Origin: Methanococcus vannielii SB
GTDB taxonomy: Archaea; AGJL01; Methanococci; Methanococcales; Methanococcaceae
Length of the DNA: 64,000 nt
Assembly: GCF_000017165.1 (NCBI RefSeq)
Contig: NC_009634.1
Location: 248,001 to 312,000 of the forward strand
Direction of reading: 5' to 3'
Shown here: positions 983-30,610 of the stretch, in pieces
Layout of the letters: every line of letters starts with the position of its first letter
How positions within the stretch are numbered: position 1 is the first letter of the stretch
Notes under the pieces: generated by a model
Told to the model about the DNA's origin: nothing
The model's database searches: none
Seen by the model: only the letters and a program-made list of their open reading frames with translations
Position numbers and translations under genes: made by a program

Positions 983-1744
983 ATGGTTAGTTTTGAAAGT
1001 AGTGTTGAAAGATTTGAAAAGTTAAAAAAAGAAACGAGTCTAAATGAAAAGACTGTTGAATGTAATGTTAAAAATGAATATTTAGATGAAAAAACCAACA
1101 AATCAAAAGTGGAAACAGTAGATAATAATAAAACAGTAGATAATAAAACTAATAATGAAACTGACTTTTTTGACTTCGATAATGAAGAAAATGGTACGTT
1201 TAGTAATGATTTAGGTATTGATGAAAATAAAGATACTGATGAAAACTTTGATAATTTTGAAAATACTGCTAAAAATCTAAAAGATTCCATGGATAACATT
1301 TTTAAACGAATAAAATCTGCAATGGACGGTACAAAAGTTCAAAACAACATTTCAAAAGATATTATAGATACAAATATCTTAAAAACTGGCTCTGAAGGAA
1401 ATAACGACCTACTTGAAGTAATAAACAATAAATTGGATATATTACTTGCAATAAATAATGAACAATCATCTAAATTGGATGAAATAACTTTGGAAATAGA
1501 TAAAGTTCTAACAACAATTGATGAGAATTCGGAAAAAATAATCGATTTAATTGATGCTCAAAATATAAAAATTTCAGGACTTTTAACAATTCTCCAAGAA
1601 ATCTATGAGGGAGTTCAGGAGATAAAATATATTTTAAAGAATTTCACGCCTGAAAATATTGATAAAGCATCTAATGTAGTCGATAAATTGAAAAATAAAA
1701 TTGATAACTATATGGGTAATGTAAATAGCGAAATTGAAGCTTAA
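983..1744 (+). CDS. acidic coiled-coil protein of unknown function
   Basis: I do not recognise this 253-residue protein. Residues 1 to about 110 are low-complexity and very rich in Glu, Asp, Asn and Lys (runs such as DNNKTVDNKTNN and NKDTDENFDNFEN), so probably disordered. From about residue 150 the sequence becomes heptad-like (NNKLDILLAINNEQSSKLDEI onward), consistent with a long coiled coil. There is no signal peptide or membrane segment. The ATG at 983 has GGAG at about 969-972. The stop lies 10 bases before the dapB ATG, so the two are probably co-transcribed. A TATA-like sequence lies near 931-940. A structural or oligomerising role is possible but is only inference. Confidence 0.65.
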   Translation: MVSFESSVERFEKLKKETSLNEKTVECNVKNEYLDEKTNKSKVETVDNNKTVDNKTNNETDFFDFDNEENGTFSNDLGIDENKDTDENFDNFENTAKNLKDSMDNIFKRIKSAMDGTKVQNNISKDIIDTNILKTGSEGNNDLLEVINNKLDILLAINNEQSSKLDEITLEIDKVLTTIDENSEKIIDLIDAQNIKISGLLTILQEIYEGVQEIKYILKNFTPENIDKASNVVDKLKNKIDNYMGNVNSEIEA

Positions 1745-1754
1745 AGGTGATAGT

Positions 1755-2567
1755 ATGGTTAAAGTAGCAGTTACAGGGGCTCTTGGTAGAATGGGAAGTG
1801 GCATTATACAAAAAATTTTAGAAACAGAAGGACTTAATGTTGTTGCTGCAATTGATATTCCAAATCACCCTAAAAAAGGTCACGATATTGGGGAATTAAT
1901 CGGTATTGGAAAATTAGGAGTAAATTTAAGCACTTCAGACGAACTTGAAAGTGTTTTAAAAAGTTCCGGTGCAGAAGTACTTGTTGATTTTACAGCGCCT
2001 GCACCTTGTGTTAATACTGCAAAAATTGCATCAAAATGCGGTGTTAATTTAGTTATTGGAACGACAGGATTTACAAAAGAGCAAAAAGATGAAATGGAAA
2101 AAGCAATTTTTGAAAATAAGGTTGCTGCAACAATTTCCCAAAACTATGCTGTTGGAGTTAATATTTTCTTTAAAACACTCGAACTTTTAGCACAAAAACT
2201 TGGTGAGTATGATATCGAAATCGTAGAAATGCACCACAAGTTCAAAAAAGATGCACCAAGTGGAACTGCATTAAGGGCTGCTGAAATAATTCAGGAAAAT
2301 TTAAACAGAAACTCAAATTTAATCTACGGGCGAGAAGGGATTACTGGCGAAAGAACTAAAGAAGAAATATGCATTCATGCTTTAAGGGGCGGTGACGTTG
2401 TCGGGGATCACACCGTAATTTTTGCAAATGATGGGGAAAGGCTTGAATTGTCCCATAAAGCAAGTAGTAGGCAATCATTTATAGCCGGCGTTATTCTTGC
2501 AATAAAATTCGTTGGAACTAAAAAAGAAGGTATTTTCAATACTTTTGATGTTTTAGGCCTCAATTAG
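1755..2567 (+). CDS. dapB: 4-hydroxy-tetrahydrodipicolinate reductase
   Basis: DapB reduces 4-hydroxy-tetrahydrodipicolinate to tetrahydrodipicolinate with NAD(P)H in lysine biosynthesis. The N-terminus carries the Rossmann nucleotide-binding motif [12 protein letters not shown]. The dimer and substrate motif [16 protein letters not shown] near residues 155-170 contains the catalytic His-His and Lys residues. The C-terminal [12 protein letters not shown] segment is also typical. I chose the ATG at 1755 because GGTGA at 1746-1750 is ideally spaced; a start in the same frame at 1734 would overlap the preceding gene. At 270 residues it has normal length. trmY follows after 8 bases, so these form an operon. 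Confidence 0.95.
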
Positions 2568-14747: not shown

Positions 14748-17700
14748 GAGTTTATGTCTGTTCTAATGCATTATGCTCTTTTACCCATTAAGGAAGTTGC
14801 ACAGGCTGTCGACTCAATAGGTTTCAATGCTTGTTCTAATGCATTATGCTCTTTTACCCAATGAAGCAAGTACTAATGAGTCGTATTATACAAGTTTCAA
14901 TGCTTGTTCTAATGCATTATGCTCTTTTACCTATCTAATATCCTATTATGTAATGGCTCGCACTCGTGTTTCAATGCTTGTTCTAATGCATTATGCTCTT
15001 TTACCAGAATCGTAAGTACCTAAATTTATAGTTCCATCAGTTTCAATGCTTGTTCTAATGCATTATGCTCTTTTACTGTTACGCCGTTTGCGGTTCCAAA
15101 ATCAGATATTTGTTTCAATGCTTGTTCTAATGCATTATGCTCTTTTACTTCTATAGGTGTTCGTTGAAAGTTCCGTAATGTCTGGTTTCAATGCTTGTTC
15201 TAATGCATTATGCTCTTTTACTGTCTTTTTTTCCTTGTTTCAACTGAAAGAGATACGTTTCAATGCTTGTTCTAATGCATTATGCTCTTTTACTACAATT
15301 CAGAGAACTGGTGCTTCGGGTAAGATACCGTTTCAATGCTTGTTCTAATGCATTATGCTCTTTTACCTGGCCAGGCTTATGCTATGCATATGGAGAATAT
15401 CCGAATGTTTCAATGCTTGTTCTAATGCATTATGCTCTTTTACTCCGACGATACCGGAAAAATCCAATGTATCGGCTTGTTTCAATGCTTGTTCTAATGC
15501 ATTATGCTCTTTTACCTGGAAAACACCTACTGTTAATCCTGCAAGTATGAATGTTTCAATGCTTGTTCTAATGCATTATGCTCTTTTACTTCATTGTCAA
15601 CTACTTCTGCGATTCCCAAATCAGGTTTCAATGCTTGTTCTAATGCATTATGCTCTTTTACTTTATTCTACCCCAACTATTACTATAACTAGCAGAGGTT
15701 TCAATGCTTGTTCTAATGCATTATGCTCTTTTACTACGTGATGTAGTACGTGTCTGCTGCAGCGATGAATAAGTTTCAATGCTTGTTCTAATGCATTATG
15801 CTCTTTTACTTGTTGATGCAATTCCTGCCATTGACGTTCCGTGTTTCAATGCTTGTTCTAATGCATTATGCTCTTTTACCTGCTCCAAGCATGATTACTG
15901 CTACTGCGATGATTGGGTTTCAATGCTTGTTCTAATGCATTATGCTCTTTTACGTTTCTATGTGTTGGGTTGTGCCATTGTTGTAATGGTTTCAATGCTT
16001 GTTCTAATGCATTATGCTCTTTTACACCGATAATGTTTTGTACTCCTTCAACATTTTCTCTATAGTTTCAATGCTTGTTCTAATGCATTATGCTCTTTTA
16101 CTCCAGAATTGATAAACGGTATACATTAAAAACCATTAGTTTCAATGCTTGTTCTAATGCATTATGCTCTTTTACTCAATTCTTTGTCAAGATGAAATTA
16201 AAAGATTATTATACGTTTCAATGCTTGTTCTAATGCATTATGCTCTTTTACTATAGTTCTATTTTTAACACACTTTAAAAAGTGTGAGTTTCAATGCTTG
16301 TTCTAATGCATTATGCTCTTTTACTTGGAACCGGATTTTATAAATTATATGATATTAGTTTCAATGCTTGTTCTAATGCATTATGCTCTTTTACAGTTTC
16401 ATCCATCTCTTTTTGGTATATTTTCATAATTATGTTTCAATGCTTGTTCTAATGCATTATGCTCTTTTACGTTCGATATGAGGGGAACCAATCTCAAGTG
16501 TGGGATGTGTTTCAATGCTTGTTCTAATGCATTATGCTCTTTTACTCTTAAAAGATAAAGGATATGATAAAAGGGATGATAGTTTCAATGCTTGTTCTAA
16601 TGCATTATGCTCTTTTACAATCAGTAAATCAGTATCGAATATTAAGGGTTTTGGTTTCAATGCTTGTTCTAATGCATTATGCTCTTTTACTTTGTAGTTG
16701 CTATACTATCCCTCTGTTTTATTTCGTTTCAATGCTTGTTCTAATGCATTATGCTCTTTTACTCTGTCAATGTTTCTACTTCCGCTTTAAAATCAATAGT
16801 TTCAATGCTTGTTCTAATGCATTATGCTCTTTTACCATAAATTAATTTCTTCATTGGTTAGAATGCCCTCGTGTTTCAATGCTTGTTCTAATGCATTATG
16901 CTCTTTTACCAGTGAAAATCCATATGAATTGGCACAGTACTTCATGTTTCAATGCTTGTTCTAATGCATTATGCTCTTTTACTACTCCTTCAACATTCTC
17001 TCGATATAAGTCATCTTTGTTTCAATGCTTGTTCTAATGCATTATGCTCTTTTACGATACAGTCTTCACACATTGCACCACTTTCAAGTGTTGTGTTTCA
17101 ATGCTTGTTCTAATGCATTATGCTCTTTTACACCACTCCAAAAAAGATAATGATTATTTGATAATTATGTTTCAATGCTTGTTCTAATGCATTATGCTCT
17201 TTTACAAATATCACATAGGAATAATTTTACCTCCGTAGCGATGTTTCAATGCTTGTTCTAATGCATTATGCTCTTTTACAGACGAAAGATCAGTTATTCA
17301 ACTGATTTTCCACGCAGGTTTCAATGCTTGTTCTAATGCATTATGCTCTTTTACCCTTCATGTTTTTCCATTTCTTTTATTGTGAAGTGTTTCAATGCTT
17401 GTTCTAATGCATTATGCTCTTTTACTGAATCAACGTATCCTGTATCAATTTTGAGTTTAAGTTTCAATGCTTGTTCTAATGCATTATGCTCTTTTACAGT
17501 TAATTGCTGTAATTTAAACGAGTTTTTCCTTGTGTTTCAATGCTTGTTCTAATGCATTATGCTCTTTTACAAGAATAATGCAATGGCAAACATCACAGAT
17601 GAGAAATGTTTCAATGCTTGTTCTAATGCATTATGCTCTTTTACATCGAATAGTAGTTTTTTTCCGAAGTACTCACTTGGGTTTCAATGCTTGTTCTAAT

Positions 17701-20700
17701 GCATTATGCTCTTTTACAGTTCAAAAAGCAATGGCAAGAAAGAATTACAAAGCGTGTTTCAATGCTTGTTCTAATGCATTATGCTCTTTTACTCAGACAA
17801 ACTATGCCTTAACTGTCTTTTTCAGACATGTTTCAATGCTTGTTCTAATGCATTATGCTCTTTTACCTGAACTTCTAGTTCTTGAAAATCTACATATTCG
17901 GAGTTTCAATGCTTGTTCTAATGCATTATGCTCTTTTACTTATCGGTTCAAAGTGTAACTGTTGAAGCAGGATAGTTTCAATGCTTGTTCTAATGCATTA
18001 TGCTCTTTTACATGCCCCTTCAGTAATCTCGAATGCAAATCTTTCGACACGTTTCAATGCTTGTTCTAATGCATTATGCTCTTTTACATTTGGCCGTACT
18101 CAGTATATATAATATCTGAGTCGTGTTTCAATGCTTGTTCTAATGCATTATGCTCTTTTACCTATTTATGCAAAATAAAGATAAAAAGTTTAAAGCCATG
18201 TTTCAATGCTTGTTCTAATGCATTATGCTCTTTTACTTTTCATGTTGATCCCTCAATTAAAGTTTTCTTTATGTTTCAATGCTTGTTCTAATGCATTATG
18301 CTCTTTTACCTTAAAAGATAAAGGATATGATAAAAGGGACTACAGTTTCAATGCTTGTTCTAATGCATTATGCTCTTTTACTACTATTTAGTATCCCTTA
18401 AAAAACTAGTATCATATGACTGTTTCAATGCTTGTTCTAATGCATTATGCTCTTTTACAAATATTACAGAAGCTCAGCACATAGAATCCATATGTTTCAA
18501 TGCTTGTTCTAATGCATTATGCTCTTTTACTACCAAGATATTATTTGCACAGTAGGTAACCGGAAAAGTTTCAATGCTTGTTCTAATGCATTATGCTCTT
18601 TTACTCTATATCTTTTGCTAAAATATTAATTTGATATGCTCGTTTCAATGCTTGTTCTAATGCATTATGCTCTTTTACAACAAACCTAGAGGGTGCAGAC
18701 CTTAGGGGGGCTGACTGTTTCAATGCTTGTTCTAATGCATTATGCTCTTTTACTATTTTACAATTTATAATATGTGAATATTACTATAGTTTCAATGCTT
18801 GTTCTAATGCATTATGCTCTTTTACTTTTTCACAATTTAGCAATATTTATTAAAGTTTTCTTGTTTCAATGCTTGTTCTAATGCATTATGCTCTTTTACA
18901 GAAGAGGAGCTAGAGATGGTGACTCAACCGTTATTCTGTTTCAATGCTTGTTCTAATGCATTATGCTCTTTTACTTTACTTATTATTGATTGAAAGGGGG
19001 CGATAATGACGTTTCAATGCTTGTTCTAATGCATTATGCTCTTTTACCCTATTTTAATTGTAGTTAAAAAATCAATTAAAATGTTTCAATGCTTGTTCTA
19101 ATGCATTATGCTCTTTTACAGATGTGGAAATGGTAGAAATTATTGAAGAAGAAGCGTTTCAATGCTTGTTCTAATGCATTATGCTCTTTTACCCAACTCG
19201 GCTGTTGCTTACTATGGGAAAAAAGTTAGTTTCAATGCTTGTTCTAATGCATTATGCTCTTTTACACGATAACGAGACTGTTGAAGTAGACCCAACTCTT
19301 GGTTTCAATGCTTGTTCTAATGCATTATGCTCTTTTACCTTTGTTCGATTGTTACAGGTCCATAGTTTTTTTTAGTTTCAATGCTTGTTCTAATGCATTA
19401 TGCTCTTTTACAATTATTCACACGACATAATAGACCAATAATTTGTGTTTCAATGCTTGTTCTAATGCATTATGCTCTTTTACCTCAGATTTTTCAAATT
19501 TTTTCGAGGTATGGTATTATAGTTTCAATGCTTGTTCTAATGCATTATGCTCTTTTACAATCGATTATTCAGAACTAATACGTTCTCTATATAGTTTCAA
19601 TGCTTGTTCTAATGCATTATGCTCTTTTACTCGTTGTTTGTGAGTTCTTGCATAATATAACACCTTGTTTCAATGCTTGTTCTAATGCATTATGCTCTTT
19701 TACTTTTGAATATGGTAAAAACATGTCTTAATTATGATGATAGTTTCAATGCTTGTTCTAATGCATTATGCTCTTTTACAAGATCACCGGGTCGGGACCC
19801 AGATTTATCTTAAGTTTCAATGCTTGTTCTAATGCATTATGCTCTTTTACATTTAACAAAAATAGTGAGAACATGAACGATATTGAGTTTCAATGCTTGT
19901 TCTAATGCATTATGCTCTTTTACTGATTCTAATTCACCATTATGTAAGCTACCGGATTCGTTTCAATGCTTGTTCTAATGCATTATGCTCTTTTACTCCA
20001 ATTCCTGAAGGTCATGATCTGGATCAGGACTTGAGTTTCAATGCTTGTTCTAATGCATTATGCTCTTTTACTAGATCACTATGCTGGAAAAAAAGCAACT
20101 GAAATAATGTTTCAATGCTTGTTCTAATGCATTATGCTCTTTTACTTGAAAAAATACTTACTGAATTGTCGATTAATGGTGAAATGTTTCAATGCTTGTT
20201 CTAATGCATTATGCTCTTTTACACTGTAAGGAATTCTGATAAATTTATTCATTCCAGCAGTTTCAATGCTTGTTCTAATGCATTATGCTCTTTTACATCA
20301 CTAATCTCGTCGACAACCACACATTTTAAGTTGTTTCAATGCTTGTTCTAATGCATTATGCTCTTTTACATTGACTCTTTTAATTTGATTTCAGGTGCTA
20401 AGTCAATACGGTTTCAATGCTTGTTCTAATGCATTATGCTCTTTTACTTCTATTATTGTTTTTTCGTCGTTAGGATTTCGTCTGTTTCAATGCTTGTTCT
20501 AATGCATTATGCTCTTTTACCCAAAATGTTTTTTTACGATATCTCTAATTGAGTTTCAATGCTTGTTCTAATGCATTATGCTCTTTTACCGCTTTTAATT
20601 TATATGGTGAAAACAATTTTAAATTGTTTCAATGCTTGTTCTAATGCATTATGCTCTTTTACATTATTTTATAATAATATATTATCTATTATACTAGTTT

Positions 20701-22115
20701 CAATGCTTGTTCTAATGCATTATGCTCTTTTACAAAAACAATTCGATAAAATACATTATGAAATAATAAGGTTTCAATGCTTGTTCTAATGCATTATGCT
20801 CTTTTACTACTAAAAGATAAAGGATATGATAAAAGGGATTACAGTTTCAATGCTTGTTCTAATGCATTATGCTCTTTTACATCACTTTTTTATTATTTCT
20901 ATTTTCGATAGAATATTGTTTCAATGCTTGTTCTAATGCATTATGCTCTTTTACTACTACAAAGGATAGAAGACTATTATATAATTGAAGTTTCAATGCT
21001 TGTTCTAATGCATTATGCTCTTTTACAGTGAGAATACATAAAAACAATCAAAAAGAAGGGAGTTTCAATGCTTGTTCTAATGCATTATGCTCTTTTACTT
21101 CATTGTCAACTACTTCTGCGATTCCCAAATCAGGTTTCAATGCTTGTTCTAATGCATTATGCTCTTTTACTTTATTCTACCCCAACTATTACTATAACTA
21201 GCAGAGGTTTCAATGCTTGTTCTAATGCATTATGCTCTTTTACAGTGAGAATACATAAAAACAATCAAAAAGAAGGGAGTTTCAATGCTTGTTCTAATGC
21301 ATTATGCTCTTTTACTTGTTGATGCAATTCCTGCCATTGACGTTCCGTGTTTCAATGCTTGTTCTAATGCATTATGCTCTTTTACCTGCTCCAAGCATGA
21401 TTACTGCTACTGCGATGATTGGGTTTCAATGCTTGTTCTAATGCATTATGCTCTTTTACGTTGTATGTGATGCCTTCCCCTCCCGACTGAACGTGTTTCA
21501 ATGCTTGTTCTAATGCATTATGCTCTTTTACCGATATATAATATTATATTATAATATCGGGTCAAAAGTTTCAATGCTTGTTCTAATGCATTATGCTCTT
21601 TTACTATCCTGTCTTTGTATTTCATTTGTTGAATTAATACGTTTCAATGCTTGTTCTAATGCATTATGCTCTTTTACTTTCAATTTTTGCATTTTCTTCA
21701 AGATAGTTAATGGTTTCAATGCTTGTTCTAATGCATTATGCTCTTTTACATTACTTACTATATATAGTTATCTACACTAAGTAGTTTCAATGCTTGTTCT
21801 AATGCATTATGCTCTTTTACGGCCGAAAAATTTAACTTTTAATAACTGCATATCTGTTTCAATGCTTGTTCTAATGCATTATGCTCTTTTACGAAACGAT
21901 TGGAGTTAATATGTAAGATTTTGAGTATGTTTCAATGCTTGTTCTAATGCATTATGCTCTTTTACACAGGTAATCAAAAGTAATTTGGGGGCAACTGCGT
22001 TATACGTTTCAATGCTTGTTCTAATGCATTATGCTCTTTTACGACTATTTTTTTATAAAAGCATAACTATATATATGAGTTTCAATGCTTGTTCTAATGC
22101 ATTATGCTCTTTTAC
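14748..22115 (-). CRISPR. type I-B CRISPR array, about 101 repeats
   Basis: A 37-bp repeat (plus strand: GTTTCAATGC at the start, CTCTTTTAC at the end) occurs about 101 times by hand count, with unique spacers mostly of 33-39 bp. The repeats look identical except the one at 14748-14784, which has about seven mismatches in its first 13 bases; such decay marks the leader-distal end. The transcript therefore runs on the minus strand from the AT-rich leader at 22116-22467, next to cas4. In that direction the repeat ends ATTGAAAC, the 8-nt tag I recall for crRNAs made by M. maripaludis Cas6b. A central TAATGCATTA palindrome gives a small stem. A spacer block near 15590-15916 recurs at 21099-21422. 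Confidence 0.97.
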
Positions 22116-22467: not shown

Positions 22468-23097
22468 TTATTTTACACAAATATTTTTATAACAACAATC
22501 AATACATTTTAATTTATTTGACGCTGATTTTGGGTAATGTCCAGACATTACTTTTTTAAACTCCTCTAAATATTTATTCAGCTTATTTATTTCTTTTATA
22601 TTCACTTCTATTTCTTTTAAGACATTTTTTCCACGACAATATAATATATATCCTTGTGTAACTTCTGCATTAAAAGTTTCAGCTATCATTAAAGAGTACA
22701 TTATAGTTTGCATTTTATATGTTTTATATATTATGTCATTGTACTCAGCAAATTTGTAATCGAGTGAAGCCATGGTTCCGTTTGAAAGTGTTAAAACTTC
22801 ATCGGCAATCCCTTTAATACCATAGTTTTTCGAAACCATTGAAACGTTTATTTTTTTGTCAACCACGTTTATTTTTTTACGTAAGTAGTTCGCATTTTCT
22901 AACTCCTTTTTTTCATGAATTGTTCTACCCTTTAAAACTTTGTACCGTTTTTCTTCATGCTGGCTTATTCCCAAATAATTCATAAAGTAGGTATATCGTT
23001 TACAATACAAAAATTCAAGCATTTCTGAAGGAGTTATGTAATATTCATTTTCATTGAATCCTTCAAAATTATTAAAAGAATTTTGAGACGATTTCAT
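22468..23097 (-). CDS. cas4: CRISPR-associated exonuclease Cas4
   Basis: Cas4 is a RecB-family nuclease with an iron-sulfur cluster that trims prespacers and helps choose PAM and orientation during adaptation. The 209-residue protein has ITPSEMLEFLYCKRYTYF at the N-terminus (first cluster cysteine), the RecB-like nuclease core with GIADEV and SLDYKF, and the C-terminal cysteines CIDCCYKNIC. I chose the ATG at 23097, which overlaps the end of cas2 by 26 bases; a longer start at 23130 is possible, but its extra residues (MAKRLIKSWYL) do not look like the family. It is the last gene of cas1-cas2-cas4, next to the leader. Confidence 0.92.
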   Translation of the reverse strand: MKSSQNSFNNFEGFNENEYYITPSEMLEFLYCKRYTYFMNYLGISQHEEKRYKVLKGRTIHEKKELENANYLRKKINVVDKKINVSMVSKNYGIKGIADEVLTLSNGTMASLDYKFAEYNDIIYKTYKMQTIMYSLMIAETFNAEVTQGYILYCRGKNVLKEIEVNIKEINKLNKYLEEFKKVMSGHYPKSASNKLKCIDCCYKNICVK

Positions 23098-23362
23098 CAG
23101 ATACCAACTCTTTATCAAACGCTTGGCCAATTAATCCTGCTTTATTTAATTCATCTTTACTCATTGGAAATACATAGATTGAATCAATATCTAAATTAAT
23201 AGTATCCTCTAAGATAATTTTTAATTCATCAAGAGCATTGCTATTTACGTCCCCTAAAAATACGCTTTTTTGAACGCGGTATAATCCATAGTTTAAACAT
23301 GTCTTTGAAACTTTGCTTCTTATTTTATCATCTGAAATATCGTAAATTACCCATAAAAGCAT
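23072..23362 (-). CDS. cas2: CRISPR-associated protein Cas2
   Basis: Cas2 is the small ferredoxin-like dimer at the centre of the Cas1-Cas2 spacer-integration complex. The 96-residue protein begins MLLWVIYDISDDKIRSKV, where the conserved Asp follows the first strand, then has GLYRVQKSVFLGDV and DSIYVFPM. I chose the ATG at 23362 because GGTGAT lies directly upstream; an ATG four codons earlier is within that ribosome binding site region. It starts 4 bases after the end of cas1 and overlaps cas4. Confidence 0.95.
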   Translation of the reverse strand: MLLWVIYDISDDKIRSKVSKTCLNYGLYRVQKSVFLGDVNSNALDELKIILEDTINLDIDSIYVFPMSKDELNKAGLIGQAFDKELVSDEIVSKFF

Positions 23363-23366
23363 ATGA

Positions 23367-24347
23367 TCACCCATTTAAAATCCTGTTTGCAATATTATGG
23401 CATTCTAATTGGATTATATTTTGAATTTCCATATTTTTTCCGCGATATTTTTCCTTACTCTCAATTAATAGGTTGTATTCTGAAATTAACGCTTGTTTTC
23501 CATCTTTTGCTAAATAAAATCCCCCTTCAATTTCTTCAAAAAAGTTATCTTTTATCTTTTTTGTTGAAAACATTTTAAAAATGATTTTGTCAATATATAT
23601 TCGATATTTTTCAATTAAATCAAAAGTAAACGCTTTTCTATTGTAATTATCAACATGCAAAATGCCGATATATGGGTCAAGTCCGGAAATTATACATGAA
23701 CGTTCAATTTGGGAATAAAGTATTCCATAGCCGTAGTTTAACATGCAGTTAAAGTAATCCTCTGCAGGATTTCTACTTCTTTTGTTAAATTGATATTTTT
23801 CAGGTAAACTTTTTGAAATCATTTCAAAATATAGTCTACTTGAATAACCCTCATAACCTTGAATCGTATTTCTTATTTCATCAATATTTTGTTCGAATGT
23901 TAATGAATTTAACTTATTTTTCCTTTCATCCATTTTTAGGATACTTTCATTAATCAAATCTCTTCTTTCATCTCTTCGGTTCATAGCAATTATTTTTAAA
24001 AAATCAGTCTGATTTTCTATTTTTTTAGAAATCCATTCTTTTACAAGTGTTAATCCAAGTTCATTTTCAGAAAGCAAAAGTTGTTTTTTTCTAATTGTGG
24101 AAATACTCCCGTGCTTTGAATGCCAAAATCTACCTACGGGTTTTCCATTCATTTTTAAGAGTACTAAATCAATATTTTCTTCAACTGCCAAGGATATTGC
24201 CTCAGTAGATATGGAAGAAGGGCAAGTAATTAAAATTTGTTCTACCTTTTTTGCAGGGATTTCCTGAACATTTTCGCCATTTTTTAATTTAAAGCGAGTT
24301 CCTGATTTTGATATATATGTTCCAGGGGTGTTGATAATTAGTTTTAT
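23367..24347 (-). CDS. cas1: CRISPR integrase Cas1, apparent AUA start codon
   Basis: Cas1 is the metal-dependent integrase that inserts new spacers. With the start used here the protein has 326 residues, the normal length: N-terminal KLIINTPGTYISKSGTRFKL beta domain, GRFWHSKHGSISTIRKKQLL linking to the helical domain, and NRRDERRDLINESILKM and GYEGYSSRLYFEMI (conserved Glu), NPAEDYFNCMLNYGYGIL, and GLDPYIGILHVDNYNRKAFTFDLIEKYR (conserved His and Asp-Glu-like region). No ATG, GTG or TTG lies in frame at the right place; ATA at 24345-24347 directly follows GGAGGGG with ideal spacing. The next possible start, TTG at 24191, would remove 52 residues including the whole first sheet. Confidence 0.88.
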   Translation of the reverse strand: MKLIINTPGTYISKSGTRFKLKNGENVQEIPAKKVEQILITCPSSISTEAISLAVEENIDLVLLKMNGKPVGRFWHSKHGSISTIRKKQLLLSENELGLTLVKEWISKKIENQTDFLKIIAMNRRDERRDLINESILKMDERKNKLNSLTFEQNIDEIRNTIQGYEGYSSRLYFEMISKSLPEKYQFNKRSRNPAEDYFNCMLNYGYGILYSQIERSCIISGLDPYIGILHVDNYNRKAFTFDLIEKYRIYIDKIIFKMFSTKKIKDNFFEEIEGGFYLAKDGKQALISEYNLLIESKEKYRGKNMEIQNIIQLECHNIANRILNG

Positions 24348-24425
24348 AGTATCCCCTCCAATTAAAACCGATAATATTATATTGTTAAAACTAAATAATA
24401 TATCTTGTTTATACGGGGGTTCAGT
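24348..24425. promoter_or_regulatory. divergent promoter region between cas1 and cas8b
   Basis: The 78 bases between the two cas operons hold the cas1 ribosome binding site (GGAGGGG read on the minus strand) and the cas8b one (GGGGG at 24415-24419). The AT-rich middle (TAATATTATATTG, AATAATATATC) can supply TATA boxes for both directions. Confidence 0.55.
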
Positions 24426-26105
24426 ATGATAGATATTATTTCAAACATTGGAAAATTTTCAAGAAATAATCATGGTGAAAAAGAACTAATAGATATTTGG
24501 CAAAAACCGGAAAAAGATTTTGATTCAATTTTAGAAGTTGATATTGACACAAAAAATAACAGCATCAATGTCATATCTAAAGAATTTGATAAACGTGTTT
24601 TTCGGGATTCGTTATTTTATCAAGTTGGAAACGGGCACGTTGGTTCACTCGTTAAAATAGAGAAATTTAAAGATGATCAAAAAGTCATTGAAAAAATTAA
24701 CAAAAAAATAGAGAGTTCATTGAAGTTTTTAAGCATAAAAACTGAATTTGTGAAAAACATATCCGAAAAAGTTTTTGAAAAAGTAAGAATAGCACCTTCA
24801 AAGGCATATATTGTTAGTTTTTTAAAAGATGGAAAAAAACCCATAGATCTTTTTTTAGATAAATTTAACAATGAAATAGAAAAGACGTACTTAAATAAAA
24901 CTAAATTTACTAAAGAGTGCCACATATGTGGTAAATCTGAAATTATATATGATACAGCCATTTATAATTGTTATACTAACGATAAAGAGATTTATTCAAA
25001 TACTAAAGGTTTCTCATTTGGTATTTGTAAAGAGTGTCTTTTAAATATACTTCACGGGCGTGATTATACGAGAGATTATCTATCTACATATTGGGCAGAT
25101 AGTGAAGTAATGATTTTGCCACATAACTACGATAACGATATCGACGAAATTTTTAAGGGCGAAAATATCGGTTCAACACATTCAGAATCAAAACTTATAA
25201 ACAAACTCAAATCAGCCGAAGAAGAAATATTTGAAGAATTCGGAAGACTTAATGAACCTGTAGATATAGTTTTTTTTGAAGATCCAAAAGCAAGTTCTGA
25301 ATGGAAAATAATTTACCATATACGAGGAATTTTACCTTCTCGATTTAAATTAATATCTGATTTAGAGAAAAAATATTCTTCAGAAAATCATAATTTTAGA
25401 CTTAGGGATATTTTGAACATTTTAGCAGGGGGAACTTCTTCAAACGAATCGAAAAGACTTTTAAATATGATATTTCATGGTAAAAAATACAGTAGAAGTC
25501 TTTTTTTTAATAAAGTACTTAAAAGCTACCAAAAAAATCATTTTAGTCAGAAAAAAATACCTGACTGGAGGTTTATGGCCAATATTCATTCCGTTTATAA
25601 TTTTTTGGTAGATTGCAACTGTTTGAATAAAGGTTGGAATTTTAAATCAAAAAATAATGGGGGAGGTTATGAAATGACAGTATATGCTACAATAGACGAA
25701 TTTTTTGAAAAAAATAATGAATTTTTTGATACAAACCAAAAGAAAGCATGGTTTTTAATTGGAAATGTTTATTCAAGCTTGATTTATTATTCAAAAAAAT
25801 ATCATGATTCGAATGTATCTTACCTTGAAAAAAACTTCTTTTTTGGTAAAAAATATGATTATAAAACATTTATTTACTTTACAAATAAGTGTTCTGACCT
25901 AATTATTAAATATAAAAGTGGAGGGGCATTAAATTCAGGATATTCTTTAAATTCACTACTTATAATGGCTAAAGAATATATTGGTACGGGAAAAAATTTA
26001 CCTACTGCTGATGAAGCCAAATATATATTTTTTTGGGGTATGCAACAACGTATTGGTAAAAAAGAAAAAAATGAAGATACATTAACCAATGAGGGTGAAC
26101 AATAA
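24426..26105 (+). CDS. cas8b: type I-B Cascade large subunit Cas8b (Csh1-like)
   Basis: The 559-residue protein is the large subunit of the type I-B interference complex, expected to recognise the PAM and position the complex for Cas3. Family evidence: location directly before cas7-cas5-cas3, length, and a zinc-finger-like module of two CxxC pairs, ECHICGKSE (about residues 166-174) and GICKECLLNILHGRDY (about 204-219), typical of Cas8b/Csh1. The rest diverges fast, as in all Cas8 proteins. GGGGG at 24415-24419 fixes the ATG at 24426. Its stop overlaps the ATG of cas7 (TAATG). Confidence 0.85.
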   Translation: MIDIISNIGKFSRNNHGEKELIDIWQKPEKDFDSILEVDIDTKNNSINVISKEFDKRVFRDSLFYQVGNGHVGSLVKIEKFKDDQKVIEKINKKIESSLKFLSIKTEFVKNISEKVFEKVRIAPSKAYIVSFLKDGKKPIDLFLDKFNNEIEKTYLNKTKFTKECHICGKSEIIYDTAIYNCYTNDKEIYSNTKGFSFGICKECLLNILHGRDYTRDYLSTYWADSEVMILPHNYDNDIDEIFKGENIGSTHSESKLINKLKSAEEEIFEEFGRLNEPVDIVFFEDPKASSEWKIIYHIRGILPSRFKLISDLEKKYSSENHNFRLRDILNILAGGTSSNESKRLLNMIFHGKKYSRSLFFNKVLKSYQKNHFSQKKIPDWRFMANIHSVYNFLVDCNCLNKGWNFKSKNNGGGYEMTVYATIDEFFEKNNEFFDTNQKKAWFLIGNVYSSLIYYSKKYHDSNVSYLEKNFFFGKKYDYKTFIYFTNKCSDLIIKYKSGGALNSGYSLNSLLIMAKEYIGTGKNLPTADEAKYIFFWGMQQRIGKKEKNEDTLTNEGEQ

Positions 26106-26980
26106 TGGTAAATTCAAGAGAATTTTTATTAATATGGGATAGTACAATGGCAAATCCAAATGGTGATATGTTAAATGATAATAAACCAAGACAGGATGAA
26201 GCCACAGGGCAACTTGAGGTTTCTGATGTTAGGATAAAAAGATTTATTCGTGACCACTGGATTTCGAATGGAAAAAATGTGCTTGTACAGACAAAAACTG
26301 ACAAAAATGGAAAAGTAATGACTTGTCAAGGAATTGTTAAAGAAATGGCATCAGAAAATAACTTAAAAGACGAAGAAATTCCAAATTATCTTTTGGAAAA
26401 GTATATCGATGTAAAACTGTTTGGTGCAGTAATTACAAAGCCAAAATATGATATCACAGGCCCCCTTCAAATTGCATGGAGCAAATCCGTTCACGAAGCA
26501 GATGTAAAATTCATGCAAGGAAATGCAGCATATGCAAGTGGCGAAGGAAAAGATCAGGCATCCATATGGTCTAAATTTATTTCACCTTACGCACTTTTTA
26601 AAACATATGCAGTCTACAATGACAAAGTTGCAGAAAAACAAGGAATAAATGTTTCAGATGATGATTTAAACGATTTTAAAGATGCATTACTTAATGGACT
26701 GAAAAATTACCGGAGTACCTCAAAAAATCAGATGCCTAGACTGTTAATTGAAGTAATTTATAATAATAACAAGTTAGATGGGGAATTAAATTACGTTGAT
26801 ATTACTTATGAAAATCAGGACCTTGAATTAAGGGATATTTCGCAAGTTGTTATTAATTTGGGTAAACTTTCAGAATATGCTCTTGAAAAGTCAGCAAGTA
26901 TTGAAAAAATTATAATTTATAAACATAAGAATGTTAACTTAATAAATGTGCCAGAAAATGCTGAAGAAAACTTAATTTAA
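26105..26980 (+). CDS. cas7: Cascade backbone subunit Cas7 (Csh2 family)
   Basis: Cas7 forms the helical backbone that coats the crRNA spacer. The 291-residue protein has the Csh2-type N-terminus REFLLIWDSTMANPNGDML and VSDVRIKRFIRDHW, then ITGPLQIAWSKSVHEADV and a segment GNAAYASGEGKDQASIWSKFISPYALF. Its ATG shares a base with the cas8b stop, so the two are translationally coupled; cas5 follows after 9 bases. Length and order are standard for type I-B. Confidence 0.95.
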   Translation: MVNSREFLLIWDSTMANPNGDMLNDNKPRQDEATGQLEVSDVRIKRFIRDHWISNGKNVLVQTKTDKNGKVMTCQGIVKEMASENNLKDEEIPNYLLEKYIDVKLFGAVITKPKYDITGPLQIAWSKSVHEADVKFMQGNAAYASGEGKDQASIWSKFISPYALFKTYAVYNDKVAEKQGINVSDDDLNDFKDALLNGLKNYRSTSKNQMPRLLIEVIYNNNKLDGELNYVDITYENQDLELRDISQVVINLGKLSEYALEKSASIEKIIIYKHKNVNLINVPENAEENLI

Positions 26981-26989
26981 AGGGATATT

Positions 26990-27667
26990 ATGAAATCAGT
27001 AGTTTTTAGTGCTAAAAGTGAATATGGGCGATTTAGAAAGCCATACACAACTACATCAGCACTTACATTTCTATGTATCCATCCTGTTGCAGCAAAAGGA
27101 CTTATCGGGGCTTTGGTGGGAATTGATAAACTAGATCTTTACGAAGAGACTAAAGATTTGAAAATAGGGATAGAAGTACTTGGTGAAATAAACAAAGATT
27201 TACAATCTGTAAAACTATTAAATTTGAAAGAAGGAGTATCTGGTGGAATGTTCCATTTTCCATCAAACATTGAATTTTTAAGGTGCCCTCATTATCGATT
27301 TTATGTTATGTGGAATGAAAATAAATTAAACGAATTAAACGATAAGTTAAATGTTGGGGAATGGGAATTTACCCCGTATTTGGGCGTTAGTGAATCCATT
27401 GCTAAGATGAACTATGAAGGAATGTTCGAAGTTTCAAAAGTGGAAAAAGCAGATTTTGTAAATACAATAATTCCAACAAAAAATATACTTCCAAAAATTA
27501 ATCTCAATACAAAAATGTATTCTGATAAAATACCTGTAAAGAATAATTCAAATCGGGAATATATTGAATATGAAAAAATAGTTTTTGCTGAAAAAAACCC
27601 ATTATTTGGGAAAATCAGCAACACGGATATTTACCAAGTCGGTGAAAGAAATGTCTATTTCTTTTAA
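26990..27667 (+). CDS. cas5: Cascade subunit Cas5 (Cas5h type)
   Basis: Cas5 binds the 5' tag of the crRNA and contacts the large subunit. The 225-residue protein shows the Cas5 start VVFSAKSEYGRFRKPYTTTSALTF, then IHPVAAKGLIGALVG, the first RAMP strand-helix with the glycine-containing turn. The C-terminal half (YEKIVFAEKNPLFGKISN) is family-like. An ATG with AAAGGG just before it starts the gene. The 3' end overlaps the first codons of cas3 by 17 bases. Confidence 0.92.
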   Translation: MKSVVFSAKSEYGRFRKPYTTTSALTFLCIHPVAAKGLIGALVGIDKLDLYEETKDLKIGIEVLGEINKDLQSVKLLNLKEGVSGGMFHFPSNIEFLRCPHYRFYVMWNENKLNELNDKLNVGEWEFTPYLGVSESIAKMNYEGMFEVSKVEKADFVNTIIPTKNILPKINLNTKMYSDKIPVKNNSNREYIEYEKIVFAEKNPLFGKISNTDIYQVGERNVYFF

Positions 27668-29948
27668 TCTTTTTTCACACCCCGATCAAACTTTAAATGA
27701 CCATTTAACGGGCGTAAGAGATATTGCTTTAAATTTACATAAAAATCACAATGTTAACAAAGATTTAACGGATGTACTTGAAATAATTTGTATGGCACAT
27801 GATTTTGGAAAGGCCACTTCTTTTTTTCAAGACCGGTTAAAAACTGGAAATAAAAGTAAACTTACAGATCATGGGGAAATTTCTGCGTGTTTTGCGTACT
27901 GGTTATTGCCCGAACTTTGGAAAATACCTGGATTTTTGATAGTAAAAAGACATCACGGTAGCATGAAAAATGCAAATGATGAAATATTGCTTAATATTGA
28001 TATTTTAAAAAAACAAGCAAAAAATATCTTAGAAAATAATTTTGAAGAAGTTAATTTAATTTATTCAGAAATGCTTGAAAAAAATTCTAAATACTTAAAC
28101 GATTTTTTTGACTTTTTAAATTCATTAAATGAACGTTCTATAAAAAAACACTTTAGAAAAGAGATTTCTAATATTAAATACGATTTAGAACTTTTTATAA
28201 AAATCCAGTATATCTATTCTATTTTATTAAGTGCAGATAAATCACAGTTAATTTTAAACAAAGCATATCTTCCAAAAGTTACAATACCTTCAGAATATGT
28301 TGAAAAATATAAAGAAGATTTAAAAAAGAAATTTGTGGAAAAAATTGGAAATTTTGAAAATAATATGGTATTTAATATTAGAAACGATGCGTTTAATGAA
28401 TTAAAATATGAACTTGAGGAAGTTGATTTAAACAATAATAAAATTTTTTCAATAAATATGCCAACTGGAACTGGTAAAACAATGCTCGGATACTATTCGG
28501 CATTTAAAATACTTGAAAGGTTAAAAAACGAGCAAAATTTAAATTCTCAAATCATATACTGTCTTCCATATATGAGTATAATTGATCAAAATTATGCGGA
28601 ATTATACAAACTCCTTGAATATAATTTAAATCGGCATCCAAACGATGAGGAACTTTTAAAGTTTCATTCTATGACTGAAATAAAATATAGTGATTTTAAA
28701 GAATATGATGCAAGATTTTGCTTTGAAAACTGGCAGAGTAAGGTTGTAACAACTACGTTTGTACAGTTTTTCAATACAATATTTAAATCTGGAAAAAATT
28801 CCGTTATGCATCGGTTTCATACGCTTTCTAATTCAGTTATTATTCTTGATGAAGTTCAGGCAATTGAAACAAAGTATTTTCCCCTTATAAAGCAGTTTTT
28901 AGAGATATTGTCTAAAAATTATAATGTTTATATAATTTTAATGACTGCAACAATGCCCATACTTCTTGATACTTATGAATTAATACCAAATAATGAAAAA
29001 TACTTTAAAAGTCTAAACCGGATAAAAATAATAAATAATACGTCAAAAAATATTTCTTTAAATGAATATAAAGATATTTTACTTGAAAAAACAATTAAAA
29101 ATTCAGATAAAAGTTTTTTAATAGTAATGAATACTGTAAAGTCTGCAAAAGATGTTTATCAGTATTTAATGAAAGAAACTAATCGAAAATGTATTTATTT
29201 ATCAACAGAGATATATCCAAAATTACGACTCGAAAAAATAAATGAAATAAGAAAAATGAATAAACGTGGTGAAAAACCTGTTGTTGTATCAACACAGCTT
29301 ATAGAAGCAGGAATCGATATTGATATGGATACCGTATATAGGGATTTTTCCACACTTGATTCTATAAATCAAACTGCTGGAAGGGCAAATAGAAATGGTT
29401 TAGGGGAAAAAGGTGAAGTTTATATTTATAATATAATCGATGATAAAAAAAGGCCTTACTGTGGATATATCTATCCACATCATTTATTAGACTGCACAAA
29501 ATCCGTTCTTTTAGAAACTGAAATTAATGAAAAAGAACTTTATGAAGTTAATAATAAATATTTTAAGGAAGTTCAAAACCGTTCTTTAAATGAAATAGGT
29601 GAAAATGTCCAAAAATCAATAAAATCATTAGATTTTAAAACATTTAGGGATAATTTTGAACTTATTAAAAAAGAAGAGTGGAAAAAAGATATTTTTATAA
29701 ATGCAGACAATAATTCTGATGAAATATTAAAAAAACTTGAAAATTCAAAAGATTTTTCTAATTTGGAAATTAAAAATTTGTTTAGAGCGTTAAATAATTA
29801 TAGAATTTCGATAAATACTCAAAAATACGATAAAATAAAAAATAATCTAATATCAGTAGATAAATTCGAGTTAGAATATTTAAATATTGATAATTACTCT
29901 GTGGAAGAGGGCATACTTGATAATCTACAAAACGAAATATTTTTTTAG
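27651..29948 (+). CDS. cas3: CRISPR helicase-nuclease Cas3
   Basis: Cas3 is recruited by Cascade to unwind and shred target DNA. The 765-residue protein carries the HD nuclease first (DHLTGVRDIAL, CMAHDFGKATSFFQ, VKRHHGSMKN) and then the SF2 helicase: Walker A MPTGTGKTMLGYYS, the DEAD-box variant ILDEVQAIE, TATMP, and motifs V-VI VVSTQLIEAGIDIDMD and QTAGRANRNG. Both activities are in one chain, with all key residues present. GGTGAAAG upstream and homology choose the ATG at 27651, overlapping the end of cas5. cas6 follows after 8 bases. Confidence 0.96.
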   Translation: MSISFNLFSHPDQTLNDHLTGVRDIALNLHKNHNVNKDLTDVLEIICMAHDFGKATSFFQDRLKTGNKSKLTDHGEISACFAYWLLPELWKIPGFLIVKRHHGSMKNANDEILLNIDILKKQAKNILENNFEEVNLIYSEMLEKNSKYLNDFFDFLNSLNERSIKKHFRKEISNIKYDLELFIKIQYIYSILLSADKSQLILNKAYLPKVTIPSEYVEKYKEDLKKKFVEKIGNFENNMVFNIRNDAFNELKYELEEVDLNNNKIFSINMPTGTGKTMLGYYSAFKILERLKNEQNLNSQIIYCLPYMSIIDQNYAELYKLLEYNLNRHPNDEELLKFHSMTEIKYSDFKEYDARFCFENWQSKVVTTTFVQFFNTIFKSGKNSVMHRFHTLSNSVIILDEVQAIETKYFPLIKQFLEILSKNYNVYIILMTATMPILLDTYELIPNNEKYFKSLNRIKIINNTSKNISLNEYKDILLEKTIKNSDKSFLIVMNTVKSAKDVYQYLMKETNRKCIYLSTEIYPKLRLEKINEIRKMNKRGEKPVVVSTQLIEAGIDIDMDTVYRDFSTLDSINQTAGRANRNGLGEKGEVYIYNIIDDKKRPYCGYIYPHHLLDCTKSVLLETEINEKELYEVNNKYFKEVQNRSLNEIGENVQKSIKSLDFKTFRDNFELIKKEEWKKDIFINADNNSDEILKKLENSKDFSNLEIKNLFRALNNYRISINTQKYDKIKNNLISVDKFELEYLNIDNYSVEEGILDNLQNEIFF

Positions 29949-29956
29949 GCGATATC

Positions 29957-30610
29957 ATGAAATTAAGCTATTTATCAATTAATTATTATGATTTGAATCT
30001 CCCAATGAGGTATGGTTCAAAAATTAGAGGTTATTTTGCAAATAAATATCCTGAAAGTATTTTGGTTCATAACCACGATAATGAAAAGAGCGTATACAAG
30101 TACCCTTTGATACAGTATAAAATAATCGATAACATTCCAATTATAATTGGCTTAAATGAAGGTTCAAAAGAATTAATACAGAAAGGAATTCTGTTTGAAA
30201 ATTCAATAACTATTGAAGAAACAAAATACAACTTAGATAGAACCGAAATAATTTCAAAAGAAGCTTATTTCGGCACAATTGACAAAATTTTAAAATACCA
30301 ATTTAAAACACCTTGGATGGCATTAAATAAGAAAAATGCAGAAATTTATAAAAAGTTAGATGAAATAGATCGAGAAGAACTTCTTAAAAGAATTTTAATC
30401 GGAAACATTATTTCGATGTCAAAATCACTAGGATATGATATAAAAGAAACATTGAAAATTAAGATAAATTTAAAAGAAATCCCCGTAAAGTTCAAAAATC
30501 AAGAAATGGCGGGGTTTAAGGGGGAATTTTACATTAATTTTGATATTCCCAATTATTTAGGCATTGGAAGAAACGTTTCAAGGGGATTTGGAACGGTTTT
30601 TAAACTTTAA
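29957..30610 (+). CDS. cas6: crRNA endonuclease Cas6b
   Basis: Cas6 cuts the repeat to give crRNAs with an 8-nt 5' tag. The 217-residue RAMP protein has His38 and His40 (ILVHNHD) and Tyr47, the residues I recall as catalytic in the published M. maripaludis C5 Cas6b, and ends in the glycine-rich loop YLGIGRNVSRGFGTVFKL that binds repeat RNA. Its position as the last gene after cas3 differs from many I-B loci, where cas6 comes first. The ATG at 29957 has an AGGCGAT ribosome binding site. Confidence 0.95.
   Translation: MKLSYLSINYYDLNLPMRYGSKIRGYFANKYPESILVHNHDNEKSVYKYPLIQYKIIDNIPIIIGLNEGSKELIQKGILFENSITIEETKYNLDRTEIISKEAYFGTIDKILKYQFKTPWMALNKKNAEIYKKLDEIDREELLKRILIGNIISMSKSLGYDIKETLKIKINLKEIPVKFKNQEMAGFKGEFYINFDIPNYLGIGRNVSRGFGTVFKL

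Follow-up and report, generated by a model that had tools for sequence, protein, structure and literature searches.

Is a CRISPR integrase gene of an archaeon translated from an ATA codon? Cas1 is the enzyme that records viral DNA, AUA is a very rare start codon, and one cas1 gene of Methanococcus vannielii SB has ATA at the position at which its relatives have their start codons. The gene lies in the window, i.e. the whole 64,000-nucleotide stretch of DNA analysed here (bases 248001-312000 of the 1,720,048-base genome), within a locus of the following composition:

14821..22115, minus strand: CRISPR array of 100 identical 37-nt repeats and 99 spacers
22468..23130, minus strand: cas4 (PF01930), open reading frame as listed, with a TTG start
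23072..23362, minus strand: cas2 (PF09827), presumed start ATG 23362-23360
23367..24347, minus strand: cas1 (PF01867, dN/dS), intact, with an ATA start, 326 sense codons and a stop codon ending at 23367
24426..30610, plus strand: subtype I-B effector genes cas8b (TM1802), cas7, cas5, cas3 and cas6b, assigned by Pfam and divergent from cas1

Pfam matches place cas8b, cas7, cas5, cas3, cas6, cas4, cas1 and cas2 next to the array, an assemblage of subtype I-B in which two matches, those for cas5 and for the Cas3 HD domain, score below the curated cut-offs. The start of cas8b is ATG 24426, with a Shine-Dalgarno (SD) duplex of -9.8. For cas4, the ATG at 23097 is a better SD site than the listed TTG, and the cas2 frame in the list of open reading frames opens earlier than its presumed start, at ATG 23374. 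The SD of cas2, GGTGAT, overlaps the cas1 stop codon. The Cas1 product belongs to PF01867 over its full length (251.7 bits, residues 3-292, profile positions 1-282 of 283), and the solved Cas1 structure 4n06 aligns to it from query residue 2. Residues E166, H231, D243 and E246 (L003 numbering, L003 being the locus of the near relative introduced below) form invariant columns in 10 aligned Cas1 proteins; we take E166, H231 and D243/E246 to be the catalytic Glu, His and acidic residue of Cas1.

The region in which translation of cas1 would begin contains the following elements:

24345..24347, minus strand: cas1 initiation codon ATA, aligned with the start codons of relatives; ATA in L003 too
24351..24359, minus strand: extended SD GGAGGGGAT, duplex with the 16S tail AUCACCUCCU of -11.4 kcal/mol
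24348..24401, minus strand: conserved upstream block, by identity to L003; A+T-rich, includes the SD, presumably serves as promoter and leader
24189..24191, minus strand: internal TTG, codon 53 of cas1; CTA in L003, rejected as start

As stated in the original prediction, the complete Cas1 N-terminus (KLIINTPGTYISK) is encoded in frame directly after ATA 24347-24345, and GGAGGGG (24359-24353) stands 5 bases before the codon; the sequence, the frame and the PF01867 match all confirm this. It also holds that the needed region lacks an in-frame ATG, GTG or TTG, since none is present among the 31 in-frame codons back to the upstream stop, and the earliest usual start within the frame is the TTG of codon 53 (24191-24189). 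The codon at the homologous start position is therefore none of AUG, GUG and UUG. Translation from TTG 24191, which would have removed the need for an ATA start, is spoken against by the comparison with L003, where the codon is CTA; the proteins of relatives reach further upstream, and the SD duplex at this site is -5.6. An ATG at codon 66 was rejected as well: it is present in both genes, but its duplex is -1.3 and the conserved N-terminus would go.

The SD stands before ATA in extended form and at proper spacing. The tail (GGATCACCTCCT) occurs in 4/4 16S loci of the genome, and the duplex formed at the cas1 ATA site is the strongest among 49 open reading frames of the window, the next being -11.1 kcal/mol; at the ATA site of L003 the duplex energy is -10.7 kcal/mol. 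The ranking took in stop-to-stop frames that lie outside the array and reach 109 codons or more, with overlaps dropped, and each of the other frames was given its best usual start within 60 codons of the first; cas2 is too short for the set. The spacing in the two neighbouring genes is identical, with GAT, three nucleotides and ATA in cas1, and GAT, three nucleotides and ATG in cas2. When all 41 genomic sites of the form RGGNGATNNNATA were examined, cas1 was the only one that opens a frame of at least 60 codons and has no ATG, GTG or TTG farther upstream in that frame. The other pattern covered by the ATA-start scans, GGTGATN{1,5}ATA, gave 53 sites with a single flagged frame of 74 codons (L196), which is antisense to the open reading frame at window 1725-2567 and was taken as chance. 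In the genome of the relative, none of the 30 RGGNGATNNNATA sites examined (out of 35) qualified, cas1 included, as an in-frame TTG lies 16 codons upstream of it, and the scan is uninformative there.

The evidence that carries the ATA start comes from a comparison between species. Among 7 genomes of the genus, one near relative of this Cas1 was found (genome G003, locus L003), 89% identical in protein, and its cas1 (L003 1501-2475) has ATA at the same codon, an agreement between two independent genomes. The two genes differ at 16 places within codons 2-52, 15 in third positions and 1 in a first position (CTA/TTA), and all 16 differences are synonymous (dS 0.68, dN 0); the chance of such an outcome is about 8e-11 if changes fall at random over sites and mutation bias is ignored. 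In both species, therefore, the codons that precede TTG 24191 are protein-coding. Over the whole gene, dS is 0.89 and dN 0.057. The leader block is identical to that of L003 in 47/55 alignment columns, compared with 45% farther out (-200 to -70, 130 columns). A recent change of ATG to ATA, or an error in reading, had been considered for this codon; finding the same ATA in another species, at so large a synonymous distance, supports neither of them, and judged by the two genes it is neither a strain mutation nor a read error. The start codon is common to the two species, with ATA in 2/2 members of the lineage found, a thin sample. Further homologue searches, including the best 80 of 481 relatives, gave no Cas1 of more than 61% identity besides L003, and there were no relatives in the viral contigs or in the initial scan of genome contigs.

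Alignment of the start region with other Methanococcus, proposed as a check of the original prediction, was carried out and gave ATA in the near relative and a usual start codon in the more distant ones. At the aligned position, 7 Methanococcales relatives carry ATG (L004, L005, L007-L010, L023), a count that leaves out the distant Cas1 genes L006, L011 and L012 (ATG) and L014 (GTG); L024, a partial match, and L013, L015 and L016, distant Cas1, were left out of the survey. In the M. vannielii paralogue (L002) the aligned codon is TTG. Among the best 80 of the 481 further relatives, 73 have ATG at this position, 6 TTG, 1 GTG and 0 ATA. In several of the 80 a further usual start lies upstream in frame, and for L118, whose match started only at residue 6, the start was moved by 15 nt. 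Cas1 genes of Tepidibacter subtype I-B systems (L109, L113) encode proteins 59% and 58% identical to that of L003, with the same N-terminus after methionine (MKLIINTPGTY), but they start with ATG, as in the L113 start region MKLIINTPGTYISK. The simplest reading, made without a tree, derives the ATA from an AUG that changed in this small lineage ahead of the split between the two species. As a separate observation, L003 Cas1 is 55-61% identical to Cas1 of Clostridia (L109-L124, among the best 80 of 481) and 54% identical to Cas1 of two other Methanococcus genomes; this closer likeness to Clostridia hints, again without a tree, at a transfer between domains.

Use of AUA as the cas1 start is well supported by these comparisons, in which the two genes have no other usual start near ATA in common, and we consider it highly probable that cas1 is translated from AUA at a low rate via the extended SD, the codon being an old and functional weak start that is tolerated or favoured. 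According to such a model, extended SD pairing would place the small ribosomal subunit with AUA in the P site, where the initiator Met-tRNA would pair imperfectly with the codon (C34 against A3). Cas1 would then carry an N-terminal methionine and be made at a low rate, whereas cas2, which would share its message, would start at a normal AUG; if little integrase is needed or wanted, the weak start could be tolerated or even favoured. Decoding by the initiator tRNA, the low yield, a single cas1-cas2 message and any selective reason are all part of what we infer.

Bacterial initiation uses IF3, whereas the archaeon has aIF1, and infC of Escherichia coli starts at AUU. The likeness to E. coli infC is that a weak start sets a low yield; the difference lies in the feedback of the infC product on start-codon discrimination, for which Cas1 shows no evident counterpart. 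The autoregulation of infC is mentioned in the excerpted text of PMC13009471. Closer precedents come from Staphylococcus aureus, for which the same excerpts give AUA starts in infC, ccpN and citZ, yields near 10% of that of AUG for the non-canonical starts of cvfC1 (AUU), ccpN and citZ when the medium was poor, and up to 30% of AUG for the ccpN start in rich medium (PMC13009471). As in infC, ccpN and cvfC1 (and citZ in one strain lineage), a conserved AUA or AUU start is combined with an extended SD, and the start is shared between species, that of ccpN by S. aureus and B. subtilis (excerpts of PMC13009471) and the ATA of cas1 by M. vannielii and the near relative. Unlike the S. aureus cases, in which yields were measured, the present one concerns an archaeal CRISPR integrase gene and is known from its sequence. 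In the excerpts available, archaeal aIF1 is described as discriminating against non-canonical starts (PMC6237735, PMC8211752), and a review of archaeal initiation names AUG, GUG and UUG as starts (PMC7531240). A survey of start-codon switches counted, among 61,358 ancestral AUG codons, 363 changes to GUG, 113 to UUG, 2 to CUG and a single one to AUU; AUA goes unmentioned in its excerpted text (PMC5622118). Searches of the open-access literature turned up no AUA start reported for an archaeon or for cas1; for some of them this holds among the top 15-25 matches listed, and these are weak evidence of absence. From the S. aureus precedent, the discrimination by aIF1 and the survey of switches together, we infer a slow but real AUA start. 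Against it stand the number of ATA sequences, which is only two, the upstream in-frame TTG and out-of-frame ATG of L003, the discrimination by aIF1 (excerpt of PMC6237735), and the second cas1 with its TTG start, which might act in trans. Of the original idea that AUA is really used at low efficiency to limit Cas1, the use of the codon stands by comparison, and the limiting of Cas1 stays conjectural; the measured precedent is bacterial (excerpts of PMC13009471).

The reason why ATA persists is a different matter. Quite possibly the codon is used but reflects neutral drift, with a Cas1 yield that matters little, a strong SD that compensates and no regulation; the start is then the same as in the preferred explanation, and only the reason is another. 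Only two ATA sequences are at hand, and switches to weaker start codons are rare yet do occur (excerpt of PMC5622118). Likewise, although the SD is predicted to pair with codons just inside the gene in both cas1 genes, RNA structure hiding the SD was rejected, as the initiation regions fold no better than shuffles (z 0.77 and -0.84, with 152/200 and 31/200 shuffles folding at least as well), leaving a predicted fold that is unremarkable. On the other hand, a single A-to-G change would restore AUG and is seen in neither lineage across a dS of about 0.9, and conservation is higher in the leader than at synonymous sites. Selection may keep AUA to limit adaptation. More tentatively, the conserved AUA could be a translational valve on CRISPR adaptation, which would hold Cas1 far below Cas2 and let it rise when aIF1-dependent discrimination relaxes. 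Stress or infection, for example, could relax discrimination, and spacer uptake would then be coupled to the condition of the translation apparatus. Drift with compensation is at least as likely as a valve.

The arrays bear on a further reading, in which the full-length cas1 is untranslated, its start codon lost and the gene silent or decaying, and the array is explained by the second cas1 or by old spacers. This is very unlikely. Both ATA-started cas1 genes adjoin CRISPR arrays. That of M. vannielii holds 100 repeats with zero mismatch, judged unusual for so long an array, and 94 of its 99 spacers are distinct; no exact copy of the repeat occurs elsewhere in the genome, and no degenerate end repeat was found at up to 6 substitutions. 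The genome of the relative shows a single Cas1 match, L003, and in L018, next to it, the 25-base end of a different repeat occurs in 28 exact copies. A silent gene fits poorly with an array maintained next to a sole Cas1, with the 100 identical repeats, with the exclusively synonymous differences in codons 2-52 and the low overall dN, or with an ATA common to both species across that divergence. The lesion originally envisaged, with lowered or stopped spacer acquisition, is not supported, given the purifying selection on the N-terminus and the position of both genes beside arrays. The two arrays, the single Cas1 match of the relative and the spacer matches to its genome described below suggest, short of proof, that adaptation has worked while AUA was the start. 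What argues for silence, besides the lack of a usual in-frame start before codon 53 in M. vannielii, also weighs against adaptation with AUA: a second cas1 exists in the genome, and part of the array is duplicated, so that its length is not all fresh acquisition.

In the array itself, spacers 10, 11, 13 and 14 (numbered from the high-coordinate end) repeat spacers 85, 86, 88 and 89 in order, and spacer 12 equals spacer 15 and differs from spacer 87; a block has been duplicated inside the array, with changes in the middle of it. The array was oriented by the ATTGAAAC repeat end, and its leader would lie at the high-coordinate end, next to cas4. The array gave no match to phages and plasmids. 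In a comparison of the 99 spacers with 8 loci, the two best matches sharing one stretch were those of spacers 39 and 42, identical in 32/36 and 30/35 bases to sites within 1.4 kb in the relative's genome (L106 8672-10068). This stretch is possibly a mobile element; of 8 proteins encoded around it, compared with PHROGs, 1 had a modest DnaA-like match and 7 had none. The match of spacer 20 to L107 (30/34, nearly all A and T) and nine other spacer rows, with 16-27 identical bases over the spacer, were treated as chance or unclear.

The second CRISPR locus of M. vannielii (L019 6198-14716) opens with a RAMP gene, a CorA-like gene and a 250-aa gene without a Pfam match, followed by cas6b, cas1 with a TTG start, cas2, four repeats and an AAA-ATPase gene. 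Its cas1 (L002, beside the RAMP and CorA-like genes) is 48% identical and likewise has a non-AUG start at the same codon, but TTG is a usual start, and the locus has four repeats. In the excerpted text of PMC10600005, M. vannielii is one of the species listed for type III-B systems that include CorA and NrN.

An upstream start giving an N-terminally extended Cas1 is very improbable, as the in-frame TTG of L003 (16 codons before ATA and found in L003 only) has no SD and a duplex of +2.6, the L003 ATG 29 bases before ATA has a frame that would join cas1 only if a run of six G were seven or were slipped over, the 31 upstream codons of M. vannielii hold no usual start, two one-base indels just upstream of cas1 make the upstream reading frame differ between the two species although the DNA is conserved, and the start codons of relatives sit at the ATA position. 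The upstream ATG of L003 opens a 10-codon out-of-frame reading frame (1472-1504) whose stop TAA overlaps the ATA start, and M. vannielii has ATA in place of this ATG.

Returning to initiation at AUA, the codon looks like a weak start that has been kept, not a mistake, and it may hold the level of Cas1 down. If this is true, gene callers limited to AUG, GUG and UUG would truncate or mis-start Cas1, and the locus would make it possible to test, simply and in a natural setting, whether cells restrain the formation of CRISPR memory by translating the integrase weakly.
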